Of a DNA stretch of 64,000 nucleotides, positions 10,973 to 53,852 are shown one piece after another. The translations under genes and the position numbers were made by a program. Positions within the stretch are counted from its first letter, which is position 1. Each line of letters starts with the position of its first letter. The notes under the pieces were generated by a model. It saw nothing but the letters and a program-made list of their open reading frames with translations. It ran no database searches and had not been told where the DNA came from. Source of the DNA: a virus; IMG/VR virus record IMGVR_UViG_3300036770_004060, positions 1 through 64,000 of that record; one strand, 5' to 3'.

Positions 10973-11587
10973 ATGATAACAAACAAAGCAAGTCAACGTG
11001 CTGATGACAATTTTTTCAATGCGACAGAATTATTGAATATTTATAACACAAATAATAGAATTCAAAAATCTATTTCTGAATTCTGGAGTAATAAAAGCAC
11101 AAAACAAATATACAATAACCTCTTGTTAAAATTGAAATTGCCTTATTTACACGAAGCTAAAAGAGGAAAAGGCGGATGTACTTGGATGCAAGAGGATTTA
11201 TTTTTGGTTTTTTATAATTGGTTAAATAAAATACCAAATCAAAGCATAACTAGAGATGAGTTGGAGTTTTGTTCTTATATTGAAGAATCTTTTTTTGACA
11301 TACTTTATTTTGAAAGACAGAAAAAATTTGAAAACTATTATGTAGATTTATATTGCGATGAGATTAAACTTTGTATTGAATTTGATGAAGAATTTCATAA
11401 AAAAAGAATTGAAATTGATAATGAAAGGCAAGAATTTATAGAAGAAAAGTATGAGGTGTTTTTCATTAGACACAAGCCCAATGAAAGGTACAGTAAAACT
11501 ATAAATAAAATTATAAAATATAAACAATCTTACAATTTAGTAAAATGTATAAAAAACAACAAAGTTCCTACAATTGGGTTCTTATAA
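10973..11587 (+). CDS. KilA-N DNA-binding domain fused to DUF559/Vsr-like endonuclease
   Basis: Residues about 10-85 match the KilA-N fold (FFNATELLNIYN, an FW in the following helix, and a Thr/Trp-rich end), a phage sequence-specific DNA-binding domain. Residues 114-165 look like a DUF559/Vsr-type PD-(D/E)XK nuclease: E114, D125 in YVDLYC, E136 and D138 in CIEFDEE, H142, D149, R152, then EVFFIRHK. The gene is antisense to the late operon, exactly between two virion genes, as homing or free-standing endonucleases often are. Likely role: a site-specific cutter or regulator. The domain calls are by motif only. Confidence 0.7.
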   Translation: MITNKASQRADDNFFNATELLNIYNTNNRIQKSISEFWSNKSTKQIYNNLLLKLKLPYLHEAKRGKGGCTWMQEDLFLVFYNWLNKIPNQSITRDELEFCSYIEESFFDILYFERQKKFENYYVDLYCDEIKLCIEFDEEFHKKRIEIDNERQEFIEEKYEVFFIRHKPNERYSKTINKIIKYKQSYNLVKCIKNNKVPTIGFL

Positions 11588-19260: not shown

Positions 19261-20024
19261 TTGTGTATAAGACTTCCAATATAAAGATTCATAGATTCAC
19301 GTTCATATGTATTCATAGAATTAGCTCTCTTTCTAGCTTTATTCCAAGAGCCTGTTTGAGGATTCTCTAAATCGTTTTTAGCATCAATCCATAAAGGACG
19401 ATATTTTCTAGGGTCTCTTGACTTCATGGCATTATAATACCTTACATAAACAAAGTCTTTTATTGCTTCTTCAAACATTCTAGGTATTATTGGAATATCA
19501 CCAACGGCAGTTCCAAACCCATTAAATATTATTCTTATGTACTTATATCCGATACTTGACCTACTAAGCATAAGTATTCCGTTTTGCTCATTAGCGTAAT
19601 AGTCGTATAGGTTATACGGGCTTGTTATCGAATTACGAGATAAATCACCGACAAATGGGTCGCCTGAATTTGAACCGTCATCTTTTATCATAGCAGTATA
19701 ACCCTGTCCATCGTAATTATTATTAAAAAGTCTTTTATAATAAACGTTTTGTGTTTTAATTGGGTTACAGAAGCTTCCGTTATAAAGGTATATTTCACGT
19801 ATATTAAATACGTTTTCAGGTATTTTTACTTGTAATGATGCTGGTATTTCTTCATCATGTTGAAGTTTAAAGTACATGGTATCGACAGCTAGTTCCTGCA
19901 TAGCATCTTGAATCCTAGACATAAACCATCCTTTAGGGAATCCGTTTCTAAATGCCTTATCATCAACTGTAGATGTTATTTCTGCCAGTATGTGATTTGC
20001 GCTAACGAAGTCATTACTTACCAT
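19257..20024 (-). CDS. Head-tail ring / tail tubular protein
   Basis: 255 aa, starting on a TAATG overlap with the upstream gene and ending in an ATGA overlap with the gp10-like gene, so the three are translationally coupled. Mixed alpha/beta composition with a VKIPENVFNIREIYLYNG block and a C-terminal helical part (MFEEAIKDFVYVRYYNAM) typical of tail tubular A/adaptor proteins. Function is inferred from position and overall pattern. Confidence 0.55.
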   Translation of the reverse strand: MVSNDFVSANHILAEITSTVDDKAFRNGFPKGWFMSRIQDAMQELAVDTMYFKLQHDEEIPASLQVKIPENVFNIREIYLYNGSFCNPIKTQNVYYKRLFNNNYDGQGYTAMIKDDGSNSGDPFVGDLSRNSITSPYNLYDYYANEQNGILMLSRSSIGYKYIRIIFNGFGTAVGDIPIIPRMFEEAIKDFVYVRYYNAMKSRDPRKYRPLWIDAKNDLENPQTGSWNKARKRANSMNTYERESMNLYIGSLIHK

Positions 20025-20743
20025 TACTGTTGTTCTTGTTGGTTACTATTTTGAGTTTGTTGTGCGTACTGCTTTGGTTGTTTTACTTCTGTACTATCCG
20101 CTCCATCGTTTGCTCTTTCATCAGGAATAAGCATTACATACCTACCTAACTTTAAAACCTCCTGAATAAGTTCTCCTACTCTTTCATCGGGTATCGGTAA
20201 TTCATCATCTAATGAACAAATATTTCTAGGGTCTAAAGAAGAACGAACCGCTATCTCAACATCTTTTACTTCTACGCATTCAATACCTAATAAATAAATC
20301 CTGTTTACGGATACATTGTTTACCTTGTCGGCTACTCTTCTAAAGTAAGGGTTTTTAGCACTAGGGGTAGTATATTCATCTAGGTATAGGTGTTGTACTT
20401 CCATCGTATTTACTGGCTGGAAGAATGTCTGAGCAAAACTATCACCATGACAGGATAATGTGTCAATATTGTATGTTATATATGCGATACCCTCATTATT
20501 TGGTAAATCCATTATTTGAGTAGGCAGGTCAATATATTTTCTTGATTTATCGTCTTTTTGTACAGTAACAGGATAGAACGTAGAGGTAAATAAATCTGAT
20601 TTAGTAACCGCATATTGTTGTAAACGTATTCTATTAGCAACTACCTGTACCCAGTAGATTATCTGGATTAAGGTAATATCGGCATCATCAAAGGTTTTCT
20701 TTAGTGATTTCTGTAAGTCGTATGCAACAAATCTGTATGTCAT
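20024..20743 (-). CDS. Head-tail connector/ring protein, 239 aa
   Basis: First gene of the tail operon, directly downstream of a late promoter at 20806-20840. The N-terminus (RFVAYDLQKSLKKTFDDADI) is helical, the middle beta-rich, and the last 30 residues are Gln-rich and probably disordered. Connector proteins with this layout precede tail tubular proteins in Bacteroidota podoviruses. No enzyme motif is visible. Confidence 0.5.
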   Translation of the reverse strand: MTYRFVAYDLQKSLKKTFDDADITLIQIIYWVQVVANRIRLQQYAVTKSDLFTSTFYPVTVQKDDKSRKYIDLPTQIMDLPNNEGIAYITYNIDTLSCHGDSFAQTFFQPVNTMEVQHLYLDEYTTPSAKNPYFRRVADKVNNVSVNRIYLLGIECVEVKDVEIAVRSSLDPRNICSLDDELPIPDERVGELIQEVLKLGRYVMLIPDERANDGADSTEVKQPKQYAQQTQNSNQQEQQ

Positions 20744-20805
20744 CTATTAGTCATTGGTGATTAGTAACTAGGCATTAGTCTTAATATCCTAAAGTCTTAT
20801 TGTGT

Positions 20806-20840
20806 CAAAGATAATTATTTTAATAATTCGTTTTTTTTGA
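20806..20840 (-). promoter_or_regulatory. Late promoter of the tail operon
   Basis: On the minus strand, an A-tract ending in ACG is followed after exactly 15 bp by TATCTTTG (plus coordinates 20806-20813). The same layout and spacing occur at 30009 and 34265. The first codon downstream is at 20743, giving a leader of about 60 nt that contains ATTAGT-type repeats. Confidence 0.7.
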
Positions 20841-20858
20841 ATATTAATTGTATATTTG
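20836..20858 (+). promoter_or_regulatory. Promoter of small RNA 1
   Basis: TATATTTG (20851-20858) is a perfect TAnnTTTG box. A TTTG lies at 20836-20839, closer than the usual 19 bp, so the -33 element is uncertain. It is back-to-back with the late promoter on the other strand. Confidence 0.55.
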
Positions 20859-20862
20859 TGCT

Positions 20863-20948
20863 GTGTAATTTGTTTTAATTCATAATTTTAGTTTTTTCAT
20901 TTTTGTTTCAGGAAAAGAGTAGAGAAGAAATTTTTTACTCTTTTTTTG
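20863..20948 (+). ncRNA. Candidate small RNA 1 (about 85 nt)
   Basis: A transcript starting just after 20858 would run through a U-rich, non-coding stretch to a strong intrinsic terminator at 20913-20947. No ORF with a start codon fits inside it. First of three consecutive promoter-terminator units. Confidence 0.5.
20913..20947 (+). terminator. Intrinsic terminator of small RNA 1
   Basis: AAAAGAGTA pairs with TACTCTTTT. The stem continues inward with A-U and G-U pairs to a GAAA tetraloop (20927-20930), and T residues run on to 20947. Confidence 0.75.
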
Positions 20949-20984
20949 TTGTATTAATAATTATTTTAATACCTTTGGTATTAG
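20949..20984 (+). promoter_or_regulatory. Promoter of small RNA 2 with overlapping dyad
   Basis: TTG (20949-20951), 18 bp, then TACCTTTG (20970-20977). The -7 box and presumed start lie inside the perfect inverted repeat TAATACC-TTT-GGTATTA (20968-20984), so a dimeric repressor could cover the start site. Confidence 0.6.
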
Positions 20985-21077
20985 ATTTTTGTACTCTCAT
21001 TCAAAGATTTATAGTTTAGTGATGTAAAAAGACTGGATAACTAGGAAAGTGAGGTTTGTAAAGACTTCACTTTTTTT
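20982..21077 (+). ncRNA. Candidate small RNA 2 (about 95 nt)
   Basis: Runs from the TACCTTTG promoter to an intrinsic terminator at 21046-21077. No plausible reading frame is present. It lies between small RNAs 1 and 3 on the same strand. Confidence 0.5.
21046..21077 (+). terminator. Intrinsic terminator of small RNA 2
   Basis: AAAGTGAGG (21046-21054) pairs with CTTCACTTT (21065-21073), 9 pairs including one G-U, with a 10-nt loop and a run of seven T. Confidence 0.8.
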
Positions 21078-21088
21078 ATTTAAAATAA

Positions 21089-21119
21089 TTTGTTTATTAG
21101 AAAATAATTATTACTTTTG
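21089..21119 (+). promoter_or_regulatory. Promoter of small RNA 3 / leader of the HTH gene
   Basis: TTTG (21089-21092), 19 bp, TACTTTTG (21112-21119): an exact Bacteroidota promoter. Its spacer contains TATTAGAAAAT, shared with the promoters near 22205, 34313 and 51949. Confidence 0.8.
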
Positions 21120-21123
21120 TTTC

Positions 21124-21221
21124 ACACCCACACTGCAATAAAAAAAGACTTTATTATACCGTAATGGTATATAAATTAAGCTCTAAGAAGTTCTGTGGTG
21201 GGGGTGCTTAGGGCTTTTTTT
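21124..21221 (+). ncRNA. Candidate small RNA 3 or attenuator leader
   Basis: The transcript would hold a hairpin formed by TTTATTATACC and GGTATATAAA (21150-21175, with one bulge) and then a terminator at 21178-21221 that ends one base before the ATG at 21222. The 5' end (CACCCACA) is complementary to parts of the terminator loop (TGTGG and GGGTG), so a pseudoknot or antiterminator is possible. It may be a stand-alone RNA or a regulated leader. Confidence 0.55.
21178..21221 (+). terminator. Terminator/attenuator before the HTH gene
   Basis: AAGCTCTAAG (21178-21187) pairs with CTTAGGGCTT (21207-21216), 10 pairs with one G-U, a 19-nt loop, followed by T to 21221. The next base begins the ATG of the downstream gene. 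Confidence 0.8.
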
Positions 21222-22004
21222 ATGCATAGTAACGAGATTAAAATATTAGCATTTGTAGTAGCTTTCAAGAGATATAGGAAGAACTCTGTCATCTTTAAAG
21301 AGGCTAAATATAAGATAGCTCAACGATTTAATCTCCATCCTACAACATTCAATAACTATCTTTCATTAGCAATTAAACTAGGTTATATTCAAGAGAATAA
21401 TGCCTATAAAGTAATTCCATTCAGAGATATTGTTAAAGACTTTAAGTACAAAACAGACTTAATCTTTTGGAAACATAAAATACTTCAATCAAAAGAAATA
21501 AGTTTTAAAAGAATATTAATAGAAATAGAAAACATAATAACATTCGATAATGTAATAAGAAGACAACAATTCAGAATAAAACAAAAAGGTAAAAGAATTG
21601 AAGCTATTAACTACCTAAAGCAAACAGATAAAAAGTCATGTCCTAAACTTTCATATAAGTACCTAAAAGATATTATGAAAAAAGGATTAAATTGTGTTGC
21701 TAACAACGAGTTAATAGAGAAATATTCTCCTACCATAAGAACATCAGCTAGGAACGTATCTAAACATACTTCTTTTAGTGTATCTAAATCAAACAAAATA
21801 TTAAACCGTTCAACTAATCTTTATAAGAGAGAGATTGTTTCTAAATGGTTTATTGGTGTTTCTTTTTTTAAACTAGAAGAATTAAAAGTAAAGTATCCTA
21901 AAGCTACTATTATTCCTTTCACTAAACATAATAAGATTAAAGTCTGTGATGGTAGTATGATTAGTGTTCTTAATTCATCTGATATAGGTATGGGAGTAAA
22001 ATGA
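21222..22004 (+). CDS. Two-HTH DNA-binding protein, 260 aa
   Basis: ATG at 21222 is preferred over a GTG at 21195, which lies inside the terminator loop. Residues about 20-70 form a winged-helix pattern (YKIAQRFNLHPTTFNNYLSLAIKLGYI). A second HTH follows near residues 175-205 (SARNVSKHTSFSVSKSNKIL), resembling lambda-type or plasmid initiator helices. The protein is very basic. It could be a transcription regulator or a replication initiator. The attenuator immediately upstream suggests its expression is controlled at the RNA level. Confidence 0.6.
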   Translation: MHSNEIKILAFVVAFKRYRKNSVIFKEAKYKIAQRFNLHPTTFNNYLSLAIKLGYIQENNAYKVIPFRDIVKDFKYKTDLIFWKHKILQSKEISFKRILIEIENIITFDNVIRRQQFRIKQKGKRIEAINYLKQTDKKSCPKLSYKYLKDIMKKGLNCVANNELIEKYSPTIRTSARNVSKHTSFSVSKSNKILNRSTNLYKREIVSKWFIGVSFFKLEELKVKYPKATIIPFTKHNKIKVCDGSMISVLNSSDIGMGVK

Positions 22005-22039
22005 CTTAAGTTTGTATTTAAAATGAGAATTTGCAAATC

Positions 22040-22198
22040 ATGAGTAGATTAACACAAGCAATAGCATTTCTTAACGTAGATAGTAAGAAGCTAAACGATA
22101 ACTGGATTTCACAAAATCTCACCAGTATTACTTTAACCAAAGAATTAAAAATCTTAAGAAAAAAAACAATAAAAAACAAAAATAAAAGTACAGATTAA
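22040..22198 (+). CDS. Small basic protein, 52 aa
   Basis: ATG at 22040, 35 bp after the HTH gene. The C-terminal 20 residues are almost all Lys/Asn/Arg. It has no recognised family and ends just before the next promoter. Confidence 0.5.
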   Translation: MSRLTQAIAFLNVDSKKLNDNWISQNLTSITLTKELKILRKKTIKNKNKSTD

Positions 22199-22200
22199 TG

Positions 22201-22230
22201 TTTGCTATTAGAAAATTATTAGTATACTTG
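22201..22230 (+). promoter_or_regulatory. Plus-strand promoter with conserved spacer
   Basis: TTTG (22201-22204), 18 bp, TATACTTG (22223-22230). The spacer contains TATTAGAAAATTATTA, also found near 34313 and 51949. The ATG at 22235 is about one base from the expected start, so the mRNA is probably leaderless. Confidence 0.7.
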
Positions 22231-22234
22231 TAGT

Positions 22235-22450
22235 ATGAAAGAAATTAAAAAAGTAAAGATTAAACTAAGTCCTTACGATGTTATACTTATAAGTTCTTTT
22301 TTTGATGTGTATATTGATAACGAAAAAAACAATGTAGTACTAATTAATTCTATTAATAGATTCCAAAAGCAAGTAAAAAATAAACTAACAGACGAACAGT
22401 TAGACTTTGTTCAGTTTGAAATTGATTTGAATAAACTAATAAATAAGTAA
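22235..22450 (+). CDS. Hypothetical protein, 71 aa
   Basis: First gene of a five-gene run. Short alpha/beta protein, Lys/Asn-rich, no family recognised. The stop codon directly abuts the ATG of the next gene. Confidence 0.6.
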   Translation: MKEIKKVKIKLSPYDVILISSFFDVYIDNEKNNVVLINSINRFQKQVKNKLTDEQLDFVQFEIDLNKLINK

Positions 22451-22867
22451 ATGGAGTTAAAAAAATACATAGAAAGACAAAATACTTTAAAAGGTATAGC
22501 AAATAGTTATACTTATAGATTTTTTAAAGACGGTAAAATTCAATTCCCAACTCTTCTCGGATTAAATAAAGAATACCATAATTTATTGAATGGTGAAAAA
22601 AACGAATATTTTACAAATGAAGAACATATATTTGTATGGGAAGAAATAGTAAGATTATTGGATTTAAAAACTGGAATAGTAGGTTCAATTTTTTCAGATG
22701 AAAACAATAAAATTAATACGAGTGAGAGAATAGTAACTACAATACGAACAAATTCTACTGGAAAAAGACAAGAGTGTAGTTTGTTTTCTTACGGAAAGAC
22801 TAATGAATACTTATTTGCAGATTTAGAATTAAGATACGATTTTATTGATGTTAAATTAGATATATGA
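22451..22867 (+). CDS. Hypothetical protein, 138 aa
   Basis: Starts immediately after the preceding stop and overlaps the HisRS-like gene by 4 bp (ATGA), so it is probably translated together with both. Soluble, mixed charge, no recognised motif. Confidence 0.6.
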   Translation: MELKKYIERQNTLKGIANSYTYRFFKDGKIQFPTLLGLNKEYHNLLNGEKNEYFTNEEHIFVWEEIVRLLDLKTGIVGSIFSDENNKINTSERIVTTIRTNSTGKRQECSLFSYGKTNEYLFADLELRYDFIDVKLDI

Positions 22868-23505
22868 AAGAGATAAAACTTAAAAAAACTTATAAGGGAA
22901 CTAGAATACTAATAGGCAACAAAAAGAGAGAGTTACTTAATAAAATGATAGACGTTCTTTATTTTTATGGTTTTGAGGAAATAGAAATTCCTATTATACA
23001 ACTTAAAGAAACTTTTGAGAATAAAGTTGGAAAAGAAAACAACAATCTAATGTTTAACTTTAAAGATAATGGTAACAGGGATATTGTTTTATCTCCTGAA
23101 TATACTAGTGTTATTCAACAATTGTCTAAAGAAACATACAAACAAGAAAAAAACGTTAAACTTTTTTATATTCAAGAATGTTTCAGAGGTGAGAAACCAC
23201 AAAAAGGAAGATACAGACAGTTTACCCAACTTGGAGTAGAAATAATAAACCCCAATGATAGTATAAACAATAACACACTTGTTCAAATAGTAATAGAACT
23301 ACTATCCACTTTACATGATATTAGTTTTGATTCGTTTAAGGTTAACTACGAGGTTAAGAGAGGGCTTGACTACTATAATGACGGAAAAGGATTTGAAGTT
23401 TTGTGTGAAGAACTAGGGTCTAGTAAACAAGTATGTGGTGGTGGGTTTTATAATGGAGGATGTGGATTCTCTCTAGGGATTGATAGGTTAATGTTAATTA
23501 AGTGA
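22864..23505 (+). CDS. Minimal histidyl-tRNA-synthetase-like protein, 213 aa
   Basis: A compact class II aminoacyl-tRNA synthetase catalytic core of the HisRS/HisZ type. Visible signatures: KGTRILIG near the N-terminus, a motif-1 region (YGFEEIEIPII, 35-45), motif 2 (FRGEKPQKGRYRQFTQLGVE, 107-126), the histidine-site signature RGLDYYN (166-172), GGGFY (192-196) and motif 3 (GFSLGIDRLML, 201-211). Bacterial HisRS is roughly twice this length; the C-terminal anticodon-binding domain and insertion domain are absent here. It could aminoacylate or bind a tRNA-like substrate, act as an adenylating enzyme, or serve regulation as HisZ does. It sits in an overlapping gene run, which argues that it is functional. 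Confidence 0.8.
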   Translation: MKEIKLKKTYKGTRILIGNKKRELLNKMIDVLYFYGFEEIEIPIIQLKETFENKVGKENNNLMFNFKDNGNRDIVLSPEYTSVIQQLSKETYKQEKNVKLFYIQECFRGEKPQKGRYRQFTQLGVEIINPNDSINNNTLVQIVIELLSTLHDISFDSFKVNYEVKRGLDYYNDGKGFEVLCEELGSSKQVCGGGFYNGGCGFSLGIDRLMLIK

Positions 23506-23508
23506 AAT

Positions 23509-23820
23509 ATGAAAAAAACAATTAATATAGTTGAAGTTCAAAGGCAGACAGGAAATACTTATTGGTTATTAAAGTCTGCAATTAGTGAACCAAAATGTAT
23601 TCTAATATTTAAAAATAGAAGTATAGCCATCGATAATGAAAAAGTATTTATTAATATGGGAGGTGAATTATTTAACGACTTTCCTAAGTTCGTAGGTCTT
23701 GAAGAATATCGTCCTACACGGAAGTATAAAGCACCAATTATGTTTGATAATAGTTGCTTCTCATCTAGTGATGGTGTTTTGTTTAAGACATCTGTAACTA
23801 ATCAAGTATATAACATTTAA
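23509..23820 (+). CDS. Hypothetical protein, 103 aa
   Basis: Begins 3 bp after the HisRS-like gene. The N-terminus (VEVQRQTGNTYWLL) is reminiscent of phage proteins with a P-loop-like TGNT turn, but no full Walker motif is present. Function unknown. Confidence 0.6.
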   Translation: MKKTINIVEVQRQTGNTYWLLKSAISEPKCILIFKNRSIAIDNEKVFINMGGELFNDFPKFVGLEEYRPTRKYKAPIMFDNSCFSSSDGVLFKTSVTNQVYNI

Positions 23821-23851
23821 AATTATAAAAATCAAATAAATAATAAGTAAT

Positions 23852-24187
23852 ATGGAAGCACAAGGACAAGGTAAAATAATTAAAATTTTAGATACTATGG
23901 TTATATCTGATAAATTTAGTAAAAGAGAAGTAGTGATAAGAGTACCAGACCAAAACCCACAATATAGTGATGAGCTTATATTTGAGTTAATACAGGATAA
24001 ATGCACCTATTTGGATAACTTTAAAGTTGGAGATGATGTTATGTTTAAATTTAATATTAAAGGTAAAATTCATAAAGATAAATGGTATAATTCATTAAGA
24101 ATATGGAATATATCTAAAGTTGGTGGTAATCAACCTAAAGTTATTAGTCCATCGTCAGAATTTGATGGGTTTGATGAACCATATTAA
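23852..24187 (+). CDS. DUF3127 OB-fold protein (SSB-like)
   Basis: The pattern G.GKIIKILDT..ISDKFSKREVVI, then a KVGDDVMFKFNIKGK segment and a YNSLRIWNISKV end matches DUF3127, a small OB-fold family common in Bacteroidota and their phages. The acidic tail ending FDGFDEPY resembles the protein-recruiting tails of SSBs. It probably binds single-stranded DNA. A second, canonical SSB is encoded at 57787. Confidence 0.75.
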   Translation: MEAQGQGKIIKILDTMVISDKFSKREVVIRVPDQNPQYSDELIFELIQDKCTYLDNFKVGDDVMFKFNIKGKIHKDKWYNSLRIWNISKVGGNQPKVISPSSEFDGFDEPY

Positions 24188-24203
24188 CTATAAAAACTAA
24201 AAA

Positions 24204-24431
24204 ATGGATAATAAATTGTATGATGAAAGATTCACTTTGCGTGATGATGATGTTTTTAGAGGCTTGATACCTCAAGTTAATAAAATTAGCGACAGAGAGA
24301 TAAATGAACTTATTCAAAGGTTTAGGGAAATAGTACCACACGATAAAAGGACGGATGAGGAGTTAAGACCATTTGCTGTAAACACTATATTGGGAGGCAG
24401 GTACCACCAAGGAACTGACCAAATAAACTAG
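24204..24431 (+). CDS. Hypothetical protein, 75 aa
   Basis: Acidic/basic helical protein with no recognised family. It is 16 bp after the DUF3127 gene and 5 bp before the next gene, so part of the same transcription unit. Confidence 0.55.
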   Translation: MDNKLYDERFTLRDDDVFRGLIPQVNKISDREINELIQRFREIVPHDKRTDEELRPFAVNTILGGRYHQGTDQIN

Positions 24432-24436
24432 ATAAT

Positions 24437-24892
24437 ATGGAAAATAACGAAGTAAAAATAACAATTGAGGAGTACAACAAATATCAAGAACTTAAATTAC
24501 TATGTTCGTCATACCGAAGATTTGTAGAACAAGTAAAAGAACAAGATGGTGTTATTCTTATTGATTATAGAAAACTAAAAACAATGAAAAACAATATTCA
24601 CCAAGAATCGATTCTATATTTAGACTATATCCCACCAAGTGTTGTTATAAATTCAGATAGTGAAATTAAAGAATATTTAAAACAAGAAATTGAAACACTT
24701 GATAATATGTATTCAAATATAATGGAGTTAATGAATAAAAACGAAAAAAACATAACCAATTCGTCTAGTGGACTAAGTGAATTGTATCTAAAACGATTAA
24801 ATAAGACATATAAAGAAAAGTGTATTTTAGAATCAGATATTCATAGACTAAGAATTGAGAATGATATGTTAAAAGCAAAATACGAAAGTTAA
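24437..24892 (+). CDS. Coiled-coil protein, 151 aa
   Basis: Long Glu/Lys/Leu helices with heptad-like spacing, especially residues 75-150. No signal peptide. Family unknown. Confidence 0.55.
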   Translation: MENNEVKITIEEYNKYQELKLLCSSYRRFVEQVKEQDGVILIDYRKLKTMKNNIHQESILYLDYIPPSVVINSDSEIKEYLKQEIETLDNMYSNIMELMNKNEKNITNSSSGLSELYLKRLNKTYKEKCILESDIHRLRIENDMLKAKYES

Positions 24893-24905
24893 AACACTTG
24901 GATTT

Positions 24906-25448
24906 ATGAAAAAAGTAGAACAAGTTAATAGACCTCTTAAACTAGGAGAAAAATACTTAGTTCCGTGTCTTGTTAGTTACCATTTTCACGAAGAAAATAT
25001 TGATGAAGAAACTTTGTGGCTAGATTTAGAACCTTATACATTAAATAGTGTATATAAAAATACAATTTCAATTACGCCAATAATAAATCATCCACATTCA
25101 GACATAGAAAACGGACAAAAAGAAATTCACTACCACAAAGACACTAGATTTATAGATAAAAGAAAACCAAATTATAAATCATTATATCAGTTTTCTCAAC
25201 TACCAAGAGGAGAAGTTGGCAAACACGGAAGAATAGAGTACCTTGAACTTCCAGTTGTTAGTGAGTTATTTGATGAAATAACACCAGTAGAATTAATTAA
25301 AAACAGCAAATTGAAACACAAATGTATTCATAATGGTAAATGTCCTCATCGTGGTTTTAAGATGAATCAGGTTAGTCCTATAGACGGAATACTTACTTGT
25401 CCTTTACATGGGCTCAAATTTAACTATAAAACTAAACAGATGATATGA
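24906..25448 (+). CDS. Protein with C-terminal Rieske-type [2Fe-2S] motif
   Basis: The last 40 residues contain C146-x-H148-x16-C165-x2-H168 (CPHRGF and CPLHGL), the two-Cys/two-His ligand set of Rieske clusters, with the HGLKFN...T turn that follows the second ligand pair in Rieske ferredoxins. Residues 1-135 match no family I know and contain several His residues. Overlaps the next gene by 4 bp. No oxygenase or ferredoxin-reductase gene is in the window, so any redox partner would be from the host. Confidence 0.7.
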   Translation: MKKVEQVNRPLKLGEKYLVPCLVSYHFHEENIDEETLWLDLEPYTLNSVYKNTISITPIINHPHSDIENGQKEIHYHKDTRFIDKRKPNYKSLYQFSQLPRGEVGKHGRIEYLELPVVSELFDEITPVELIKNSKLKHKCIHNGKCPHRGFKMNQVSPIDGILTCPLHGLKFNYKTKQMI

Positions 25449-25972
25449 AAGATAATTATAACAACAACGAGTTAACGTACATAGCAGAAAGATTAACCCC
25501 ATCAGTATTCACAACTATGGAATTACTTGAAAAAGATGGAATTGATTTTATAGACCTACTTCTTTCATTCTCAATGATTGATTCTGATAAGTTAATCTCT
25601 TTTCATATAGAATCTTCTGAAATATTTAGATTAAGTTTAACTACTTATGAAAAAATATTAGACTCAATAGGAAGCAGAACGTTTGATTATTTTTACTACA
25701 AGGATGTTGTAACCAACAAGGAAAAAATAAAAGGGATAATAGAAAATATTGATTTAAGAATTAATGAAACTCAATCAACGCTGTCTCAATTTAAAAATGC
25801 AGACTTAGATAGATTAAATAGATTATGTTCTGTTTTTTCAGAATCGTTAAAAATTCATGCAGATACCGATAAGGAATCCCATGAAAAATTTTTAAAAAAA
25901 GTAAACGAATGTGTCGATATTATTATCTTTCAGCATAAAATAATTTCAAAACTCTCGCGCTATATTAATTAG
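25445..25972 (+). CDS. Hypothetical protein, 175 aa
   Basis: Helical, acidic protein, last gene of the plus-strand accessory block. ATGA overlap with the Rieske gene. It converges with a virion gene, the two stops overlapping by 4 bp, with no terminator between. Confidence 0.55.
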   Translation: MKDNYNNNELTYIAERLTPSVFTTMELLEKDGIDFIDLLLSFSMIDSDKLISFHIESSEIFRLSLTTYEKILDSIGSRTFDYFYYKDVVTNKEKIKGIIENIDLRINETQSTLSQFKNADLDRLNRLCSVFSESLKIHADTDKESHEKFLKKVNECVDIIIFQHKIISKLSRYIN

Positions 25973-38897: not shown

Positions 38898-38926
38898 CAA
38901 ATATATAATTTCTATTTAACATAATG
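38898..38926 (-). promoter_or_regulatory. Promoter of the packaging operon
   Basis: Minus strand TATATTTG (38898-38905 in plus coordinates), preceded by ATTATGTTAAATAGAA. The latter element is repeated upstream of the giant virion gene near 10.9 kb. Confidence 0.6.
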
Positions 38927-39288
38927 TATAAATATTTAACCATATTAATAAAAAATATAACTAATATTTAACTGTACTATAATCTAAAACAACTCAATAA
39001 ACTAGTAACCAAACACTTATGTAGCTTGTGTATATAATCAATAATAAGATGTATTATCATACTAGTAGAATACAGTATAATAAGATAGTTCGTAAACCAT
39101 GTTTATATGCAAGAATAGGTAGATAAAAAACACAGATAAACAAGTATCTAGTAATTAGTATCTAGTAATTAGTGGTTGTTAGTGATTGAATATGAAAATA
39201 GATTCACATACTTATACAATAAATCATATAACCAAACATTAATAGAATCATAACTTAAACACAAATATAATTGATATTAATTTCTAAA

Positions 39289-39386
39289 TATATCAGTATA
39301 GCGGTAATATTATATCAGTATAGAGAATGTTAAAACGTGGGTACTACATAGAGTATATTGGAATGTAATAGAGTATATTGGAATGT
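39289..39386. repeat. Iteron-like direct repeats
   Basis: TATATCAGTATAG occurs at 39289-39301 and 39311-39323 (22-bp period). GTGGGTACTAC occurs at 39337 and 39385. ATAGAGTATATTGGAATGT occurs at 39348-39366 and 39368-39386. Direct repeats of about two helical turns are typical of initiator-binding iterons. Confidence 0.65.
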
Positions 39387-39399
39387 GGGTACTACCCAC
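39385..39399. other. GC-rich hairpin in the control region
   Basis: GTGGGT-ACT-ACCCAC, a perfect 6-bp stem with a 3-nt loop, directly after the 19-bp repeats and followed by C-rich sequence. Confidence 0.6.
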
Positions 39400-39612
39400 C
39401 TAAACCCTACCCCTAGCCTTTAAAAACCGAAAGTCTGCTATTAATTACTTACTGTATTAGGTATTATTGGTTAGTATTAGGCATTAGTTACTAGTATAAT
39501 CAGCTAATCATTATGGTTGTTATTACTATACGTATATTGTTAATTATACTATTCTTAATTCTACTAGTGTATCGTTTTAGTATAGTCCGTAAAGAAAAGT
39601 ATAAATACGTAT

Positions 39613-39628
39613 AGTTTCACGTGAAACA
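39613..39628. promoter_or_regulatory. parS-like centromere site
   Basis: AGTTTCACGTGAAACA matches the bacterial chromosomal ParB site TGTTTCACGTGAAACA in 15 of 16 positions, with the full 14-bp palindrome GTTTCACGTGAAAC at 39614-39627. Such a match is very unlikely by chance in AT-rich DNA of this length. No parA or parB gene was found in the window, so it would act with host ParB or with genes outside. Confidence 0.75.
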
Positions 39629-39888
39629 TAGTAGTATTACGTACTAATAATAAGTACTTGATAATGAATATAATACGACTTGTAAGTTAGAGTAGAAAAT
39701 GATGTAAAATTAGCTAAAGTGTTGATAATCAGGGTGTTACCAATAATATTTCTCTTTCAATAAATAGTTACTATGTTGGTTATTTACTTTATTATTATAA
39801 TTGGTGTGTCGTTATAATAGTGTGTGTGTCATTTGGGGTTGCGTTTGGTTATAAATGTTAATTTTTGTTAAAAATAATCAATTGAATA

Positions 39889-39917
39889 TTTTGAATCAAA
39901 ATAATTATATATATTTG
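39889..39917 (+). promoter_or_regulatory. Early promoter
   Basis: TTTTG (39889-39893), 16 bp, TATATTTG (39910-39917), 45 bp before the first early gene. The -7 box is perfect; the spacer is slightly short. Confidence 0.65.
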
Positions 39918-39962
39918 CTATCAGAAAAAATTAAAAAGAATTATTAATTAAAATTAAAGAAA

Positions 39963-40229
39963 ATGAAAAAATTTAATCAAATCACAGGAATGTTAATTGG
40001 TTTACCAACACAATTAATTGTTAAAGATAAGTTAATTTCTTTCACAGCTAACACAAAAATTTTAGAAAATGGGAGAGTATTGAAAGCACCTATTGTTGTT
40101 GAAATTTCAAAAATAAAAGGTTTTGCTATAACAGAAAAGAAAATATGTAGAGCAAGAAAAAATGTTGAGTTTATTGATGGAAAAACTCAAGAAATAGTTT
40201 GGCAAATGATGAAATATACAGTGAAATGA
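39963..40229 (+). CDS. Small early protein, 88 aa
   Basis: First gene of the early operon. Basic, beta-rich (LIGLPTQLIVKDKLISFTAN); it ends IVWQMMKYTVK. No family recognised. Early first genes in phages often target host processes, but nothing in the sequence shows this. Confidence 0.6.
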   Translation: MKKFNQITGMLIGLPTQLIVKDKLISFTANTKILENGRVLKAPIVVEISKIKGFAITEKKICRARKNVEFIDGKTQEIVWQMMKYTVK

Positions 40230-44598: not shown

Positions 44599-46045
<1,447 letters not shown>

Positions 46046-53457: not shown

Positions 53458-53852
53458 TGTTTAAGCCAATTAAACGTTCTAAATACGGAAACAAAAAAGT
53501 AGTAAGCGGGAATGATACGTTTGACAGTAAAAAAGAGTTTAAACGATACAATGAACTTGTTTTTATGCAACAAAAAGGAATGATTTCAAATCTTCAGAAA
53601 CAGGTTAAATTTGAGTTAATCCCTGCCATGTATGAGGAGGTTGAAGTTGCTCTTAAAACTAAAACTAAAATAGTTAAAAAATCTATTCAGATGTCTATTA
53701 ACTATGTGGCTGATTTTGTATATGACGATACTAATGGCAATAGAGTTGTAGAAGACGTTAAAGCATCAAAGATATTCCAAGATGGTGTTTATAAAATAAA
53801 GAAAAAGCTAATGAGATATATTCACGGAATTGAAATAAAAGAAATATTATAA
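53457..53852 (+). CDS. DUF1064 nuclease-like protein
   Basis: 131 aa. KYGNKKV...FDSKKEFKRYNEL, then YVADFVYDDTNGNRVVEDVK matches DUF1064, a PD-(D/E)XK-like phage family. The acidic ADF and the VVEDVKAS motif supply the catalytic residues. Probably a Holliday-junction or flap nuclease serving recombination. Its stop codon is within an IS right-end-like sequence. Confidence 0.75.
   Translation: MFKPIKRSKYGNKKVVSGNDTFDSKKEFKRYNELVFMQQKGMISNLQKQVKFELIPAMYEEVEVALKTKTKIVKKSIQMSINYVADFVYDDTNGNRVVEDVKASKIFQDGVYKIKKKLMRYIHGIEIKEIL

Follow-up and report, generated by a model that had tools for sequence, protein, structure and literature searches.

Several described systems resemble the locus analysed here. 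In attenuators and pseudoknot leader switches, such as the preQ1-I riboswitch and the rep leaders of pT181 and pIP501, a terminator lies in the promoter-proximal leader and an upstream segment pairs with it. The phage units described below have the same layout, but they carry no ligand aptamer and no Rfam match, they pair the very first nucleotides of the RNA with the loop of the terminator, and their docking sequence differs in almost every phage while several unrelated loci per genome are served. The lambda pR'-tR' late leader (lambda "6S" RNA, Q antitermination) is similar in having a strong promoter, a close terminator and a short RNA as product until read-through occurs; the phage units differ from it in their Bacteroidota-type promoter and in that no Q-like protein was identified, and the lambda leader is not known to have 5'-end docking.

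The order of promoter, structured pseudoknot RNA, terminator and ORF is also that of the type III toxin-antitoxin systems (ToxIN, CptIN, TenpIN); however, the RNAs studied here have no tandem repeats, the ORF behind them belongs to no known toxin family, and its counterparts in relatives are homing endonucleases or early genes. The kissing loops of ColE1 RNAI/RNAII and R1 CopA/CopT are likewise two complementary loops of 6-8 nt whose sequence is free to diversify, whereas in the phages both docking hairpins are in one transcript and one of them is the terminator. Finally, Bacteroidota intergenic sRNAs such as GibS (PMC7366714) share the promoter type and the intrinsic terminator; unlike them, the present elements are phage-encoded, about 90 nt long and mostly placed as leaders, and no sequence relation was found.

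The locus and its genomic setting

The stretch of DNA analysed, called the window below, comprises 64,000 nucleotides of an IMG/VR virus record of 67,768 bases (31% GC), an uncultivated, metagenomic contig. Its likeness to crAss-type podoviruses is weak (a ring protein 2 and a muzzle protein, both just under the Pfam cut-offs, a P22-like portal and an SU10-like capsid). No DxDxD polymerase motif was found in the 2939-aa protein. The setting of the locus is as follows:

20024 to 20743, minus strand: ring protein gene, left neighbour of the gap
20744 to 21221: gap with units 1-3, flanked by the ring protein gene and the ORF at 21222
20744 to 25968, plus strand: block inserted between two late genes, with units 1-3 as its 5' end
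21222 to 22004, plus strand: ORF of 260 aa, no family, its ATG directly following the T-run of terminator T3

With the terminase as bait we collected 27 related contigs and then 42 loci with the ring gene; the capsid and portal proteins, used in the same way, gave no match. All phages of this kind in the analysis are represented by contigs from metagenomes. The ring gene is adjacent to the neighbouring late gene (1-46 nt apart) in 40 of these 42 relatives, and a plus-strand block between the two late genes is present only in the window (5225 nt), in G001 (6281 nt) and in L051 (2301 nt). Units 1-3 are therefore the 5' end of an accessory block that lies antisense in the late operon. G001, the closest relative (ring protein 78% identical), carries a single promoter-terminator unit in the equivalent place, before an HNH-like ORF whose Pfam HNH score is just under the cut-off; the shortest block, that of L051, has a plain promoter and no promoter-terminator unit.

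The insertion site is subclade-specific (window 20744-25968; L046:2249-8529; L051:5700-8000) and the gene content of the blocks differs but is partly shared: a DUF3127 protein is common to the blocks of the window and G001, and a homologue of window 24204-24431 is present in that of L051. The block of the window also encodes a 213-aa truncated histidyl-tRNA-synthetase-like protein consisting of the class II core only (22864-23505) and a small protein (24906-25448) that ends in a Rieske [2Fe-2S] domain, unusual for a phage. Elsewhere in the window, an ORF with KilA-N and DUF559 (restriction-endonuclease-like) domains is inserted antisense among the late genes and carries a TATATTTG box of its own (10973-11587, plus strand); about 1 kb of AT-rich non-coding DNA (38900-39960) lies at the start of the main early region, and a TATATTTG box precedes the ORF at 39963; an RtcB RNA ligase gene lies at 44663-46045, and a PF01139 protein is found in phi38:1 as well (L258, 19247-20650). 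Two similar minus-strand hairpins with ATCGCTTTTTAGCGTG cores, at 53846 and 54985 near ORF ends, are read as minus-strand terminators.

The 260-aa ORF matched nothing in PADLOC, in Pfam or among viral contigs. Its AlphaFold model (pLDDT 41) was too poor for a structure search; only residues ~3-65 fold with some confidence, with a predicted winged-helix-like shape.

Three promoter-terminator units

The gap contains no ORF of at least 50 aa on either strand except a GTG extension (21195) of the ORF at 21222, so that, as the sequence-only reading of this DNA had pointed out, annotation by ORFs would not show the locus. That reading had described three TAnnTTTG promoters, each followed by a strong terminator and all on one strand, and here the exact boxes and terminators could be placed. 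TAnnTTTG is the -7 box of the Bacteroidota primary sigma factor (PMC9723704, PMC7366714) and is located at -12 to -5 relative to the transcription start site (TSS) (PMC9723704), which gives the predicted TSSs and transcripts listed below:

20851 to 20858, plus strand: P1, -7 box TATATTTG, predicted TSS ~20863, without TTG at the usual distance
20863 to 20948, plus strand: unit 1, predicted RNA of ~86 nt, with a U-rich leader and no docking pairing
20909 to 20948, plus strand: T1, intrinsic terminator of unit 1 (GAAAAGAGTA..TACTCTTTTTTT), 18 pairs counting G-U and the T-tract
20967 to 20983: inverted repeat with perfect arms of 7 bp, TAATACC-TTT-GGTATTA, spanning the P2 -7 box
20970 to 20977, plus strand: P2, -7 box TACCTTTG, TTG 18/21 nt upstream, predicted TSS ~20982
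20982 to 21075, plus strand: unit 2, predicted RNA of ~94 nt, with three hairpins and no docking pairing
21044 to 21075, plus strand: T2, intrinsic terminator of unit 2 (AAAGTGAGG..CTTCACTTTTTTT), 14 pairs
21090 to 21092, plus strand: TTG of P3, 19 nt upstream of its -7 box, the spacing most often seen in related units
21112 to 21119, plus strand: P3, -7 box TACTTTTG, predicted TSS ~21124
21124 to 21218, plus strand: unit 3, predicted RNA of ~95 nt
21178 to 21221, plus strand: T3, which terminates unit 3, with arms at 21178-21187 and 21207-21216 (10 pairs) and the loop at 21188-21206
21215 to 21221, plus strand: T-run of T3 (7 T), abutting the ATG at 21222

The predicted lengths agree with the discrete transcripts of about 85-100 nt expected by the earlier reading. 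RNA folding gave z-scores of -3.3, -2.75 and -1.5 for units 1, 2 and 3, respectively. The inverted repeat over the P2 box is a possible operator, and a related ATACC..GGTAT hairpin is the middle hairpin of unit 3. An AT-rich 18-nt repeat (21071-21109) lies around P3, outside the RNAs.

TAnnTTTG alone is frequent by chance, with 58 matches on the plus and 50 on the minus strand of the window. When a pair was defined by terminator score, T-run and a TAnnTTTG box within 150 nt, and both strands were searched, the three units were the only promoter-terminator pairs in the whole 67.8-kb record, all within 390 nt, against a mean of 0.1 per record in 200 block-wise dinucleotide shuffles.

Docking of the 5' end on the terminator loop

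In unit 3 the beginning of the predicted RNA is complementary to the loop of its own terminator:

21125 to 21137, plus strand: docking strand, RNA +2 to +14 (CACCC-A-CACTGCA), pairing with 21194-21206
21155 to 21171, plus strand: middle hairpin TATACC-GTAAT-GGTATA; relatives also have middle hairpins
21194 to 21206, plus strand: docking target in the T3 loop (TGTGGTG-G-GGGTG)

The helix consists of 5 pairs, one mismatch and 7 pairs including G-U (-18.6 kcal/mol). When random genomic 20-mers served as controls, docking at +2 had P=0.0046; with whole-leader controls P was 0.033-0.035. The predicted MFE structure of the unit is the docked form (-23.6 vs -20.0 with the terminator), so that, according to the predicted folds, an alternative pairing is able to compete with the terminator, as in an attenuator. 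No docking or kissing was detected in units 1 and 2 (P = 0.45 and 0.98).

The pairing is more extensive in G001, where nucleotides 1-15 of the RNA are complementary throughout (one G-U) to the terminator loop and its flanks; none of 1000 shuffles was as good, and the docked form is predicted at -24.0 vs -22.7 for the terminator. A possible second promoter (TAAGTTTG) lies between this terminator and the HNH ORF, and read-through may therefore not be obligatory in G001. The inverted repeats of G001 had also been considered as recombination sites, an idea dropped on seeing their loop position and the covariation.

The element in related phages

In 25 related contigs (1.41 Mb) the same search yielded 41 promoter-terminator pairs, where 1.3 would be expected from the shuffled replicates. 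Perfect complementarity of at least 7 nt between the 5' end and the terminator loop was present in 26 of the 41, compared with 0 of 13 control pairs from ten shuffled replicates. Four other Bacteroidota phages (phi38:1, phi14:2, crAss001 and 6H; first 47-50 kb of each) contain 4 pairs in 197 kb, none of them with docking of at least 7 nt.

The element occupies fixed positions, ahead of the first early gene, of HNH homing endonuclease genes and of a conserved non-coding RNA of ~280 nt, and it usually ends 4-20 nt upstream of the next feature. Three contexts were distinguished, and the loci of contexts 1 and 2 were gathered via the neighbouring protein genes, blind to RNA pairing:

Context 1: behind a conserved gene of 127-131 aa (q130); 20/20 promoter-bearing loci dock (second search)
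Context 2: before the first early gene (q94); docking in 13/17 genomes, T-run ~10-20 nt before the ATG
Context 3: upstream of NUMOD4-HNH endonuclease ORFs (Pfam), which are antisense insertions next to late genes of the late operon; in G021, G026 and G027 the T-run lies ~6 nt from the ATG

In most of the pairs found in relatives, the RNA begins with 7-12 nt that match the terminator loop by perfect complementarity, and the two partners are often the loops of kissing hairpins. Many context-1 RNAs, for example, have two hairpins with complementary apical loops, such as GTCGAA[CTCACTC]TTCGAT and the terminator loop A[GAGTGAG]AAG. The q94 leaders, like unit 3, have no other promoter between terminator and start codon. 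Several early-promoter leaders (G026, G027, G035) are of the promoter-terminator type without docking, and by eye unit 1 is like these.

Two further features of these genomes were observed. Behind the context-1 unit, 16 of the 25 related genomes have a conserved non-coding sequence of ~270-310 nt, of two unrelated types in the same slot: alpha (L236:1733-2017, L239, L240, L242, L245, L248, L250, L252) and beta (L235:1734-2050, L241, L247, L249, L254), with G014 and G033 as weak beta matches. Compensatory pairs number 10/58 in alpha and 15/43 in beta; neither type matches Rfam or occurs in the window, and both are probably large phage RNAs that have not been filed. Long polypyrimidine tracts (CTTTTTCTTTTTCTT..., up to >100 nt) lie directly 5' of the q94 early promoter, in the transcribed orientation (for example in L201, L215, G016 and G029).

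The docking sequences diversify while their complementarity is kept. There are 38 different docking strands among 43 units, which are related by descent and so represent fewer than 43 independent events; each strand is complementary to its own loop over a median of 8 nt, against a mean of 3.9 nt for swapped partners (permutation P < 5e-5 for contexts 1 and 2, 0.0084 for context 3). In an alignment of seven sequences (A7) the kissing helix is 100% paired and 7/7 pairs have two-sided changes; with all helices of the structure counted, two-sided changes affect 24 cells vs 8.4 in shuffles (0/500), and slid controls drop to 30-40% paired. Clean compensation is seen between close relatives, GACTAGCA/TGCTAGTC vs GATTAGCA/TGCTAATC in one case and GATGCAG/CTGCATC vs AATGCAG/CTGCATT in another.

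Compared with this lineage-wide design, unit 3 has the TAnnTTTG promoter and a docking strand that starts at +2, within the range of +1 to +7 from the TSS. Its T-run also lies close before an expressed feature, here directly at the ATG and in relatives usually at 4-20 nt, and its complementarity includes a mismatch and a G-U pair where the lineage search required at least 7 perfect nt between the first ~26 nt and the loop. Taken by its features, unit 3 looks like a member of this design.

A model for the units and its alternatives

We infer from the sequence how the locus would work, including transcription, termination and the effect of docking on termination with its direction. The host RNA polymerase, with a primary sigma factor of Bacteroidota type, would start at the three promoters and stop after 85-95 nt in each case; with a strong terminator behind every promoter, the basal products would be three short RNAs and little mRNA of the block. 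Since the T-run of T3 ends at the ATG at 21222 and leaves no room for a promoter, the ORF should be reachable from these promoters only by read-through, and unit 3 would be the gate to the first gene of the block, expressed from P1-P3 in this way. The 5' end of the unit 3 RNA (+2 to +14) would dock on the loop of its own terminator hairpin as soon as this loop emerges from the polymerase. Since the 3' arm is transcribed later than the loop, docking could be in place first and either compete with terminator closure or delay it. Hardly any nucleotides of the loop are spare in unit 3 and G001, where docking would compete with the terminator; in many relatives 3-7 loop nucleotides are spare and may allow a pseudoknot in which docking and terminator exist side by side, which makes stabilisation of the released RNA a live alternative. 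Unit 3 would then be a conditional terminator (attenuator), set by whatever frees or hides the 5' end, and a hidden 5' end would restore termination. Units 1 and 2 may be plain terminated units with the same promoter type, giving extra short RNAs or acting as read-through gates.

Terminated leaders or attenuators, with unit 3 as a docking gate, are probably a better reading of the locus than three free trans-acting sRNAs, since the elements of relatives stand right before ORFs or a long non-coding RNA and since the pairing of 5' end and loop is conserved. The sequence-only reading had taken the units as non-coding and as candidate small RNAs: each does have its own promoter and terminator, but unit 3 is not free-standing, its T-run abutting the ATG at 21222, and it appears to be the leader of this ORF.

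Three independent sRNA genes, acting in trans on phage or host mRNAs with docking merely stabilising the RNA by tying its ends, would account for the compact units, the RNAs of 86-95 nt and the place of units 1 and 2, which are not beside an ORF; moreover, B. thetaiotaomicron intergenic RNAs with a TSS and a terminator were mostly confirmed by Northern blot (PMC7366714). Nevertheless, unit 3 ends at a start codon, and units 1 and 2 lie upstream of it with further terminators between. Antisense matches of units 1-3 in the rest of the window, the kind of target that the earlier reading had suggested predicting, were at the level of shuffles, and the docking sequence varies freely while remaining self-complementary, unlike a conserved trans seed. 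We consider this explanation rather doubtful for the locus as a whole; units 1 and 2, which lack the docking pairing, could still be sRNAs.

A mechanism of the lambda pR'-tR' type, with a basal stop at T1-T3, a phage protein that modifies the polymerase at the promoter and docking incidental in the window, seems unlikely too. Serial promoter-terminator units before a gene would be useless without some antitermination, and units 1 and 2 have no docking, nor do the early-promoter leaders of several relatives (G026, G027, G035); on the other hand, no antiterminator gene was identified, and the compensatory evolution of docking in relatives would be left unexplained.

Very improbable, in our judgement, is antisense-RNA attenuation of the pT181/pIP501 kind, in which a counter-transcript from the opposite strand would hide the 5' docking strand of unit 3 and cause termination. 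The predicted MFE structure is the docked form, as such a switch requires, and a counter-transcript of ~90 nt could run from a weak minus-strand promoter-like site (TTGAAA-17-TATTTT, 21268-21240) to a weak minus-strand hairpin of terminator type at 21146 (-6.2 kcal/mol); yet the last G of the -7 box is missing from the promoter-like site, the hairpin is weak, inspection of G001 revealed no convincing equivalent, and sigma70-like matches are fewer in the region than in shuffles.

That AT-rich intergenic DNA yields boxes and T-rich hairpins without function is scarcely credible, common as the -7 box is, given three pairs within 390 nt against 0.1 expected and the conserved positions and covariation in relatives.

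Conclusions

Terminated leaders, attenuators and kissing loops are already known kinds of element. No Rfam covariance model matched the units of the window, or those of relatives up to E<=1; BLAST of the whole locus against isolate phages gave no match, q94 and q130 are absent from isolate phages, and q94 has no relatives in the cellular genome scan. The open-access literature searched holds nothing that matches terminator-loop docking or phage leaders of this kind, nor does it describe a terminator that docks with its own RNA through a diversifying code and recurs at several loci of one genome. It is possible, and we propose it tentatively, that the docking gate represents a new class of phage RNA switch, in which the nascent 5' bases recognise their own terminator loop via a kissing code that is specific to each locus and diversifies fast. 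Given the compensatory evolution, the docking hypothesis is open to a direct test in which one strand is mutated and the pairing is restored by changing the other. If docking controls termination, the element would be a protein-free, individually coded gate and a possible synthetic part.

For the phages themselves, if the proposal is true, the kissing code would let one phage gate its early operon, its homing endonucleases and a large non-coding RNA separately, and feedback by the released leaders would be confined to the locus, or the type of phage, from which they come. The early operon and the mobile endonuclease genes both have these elements at their start.
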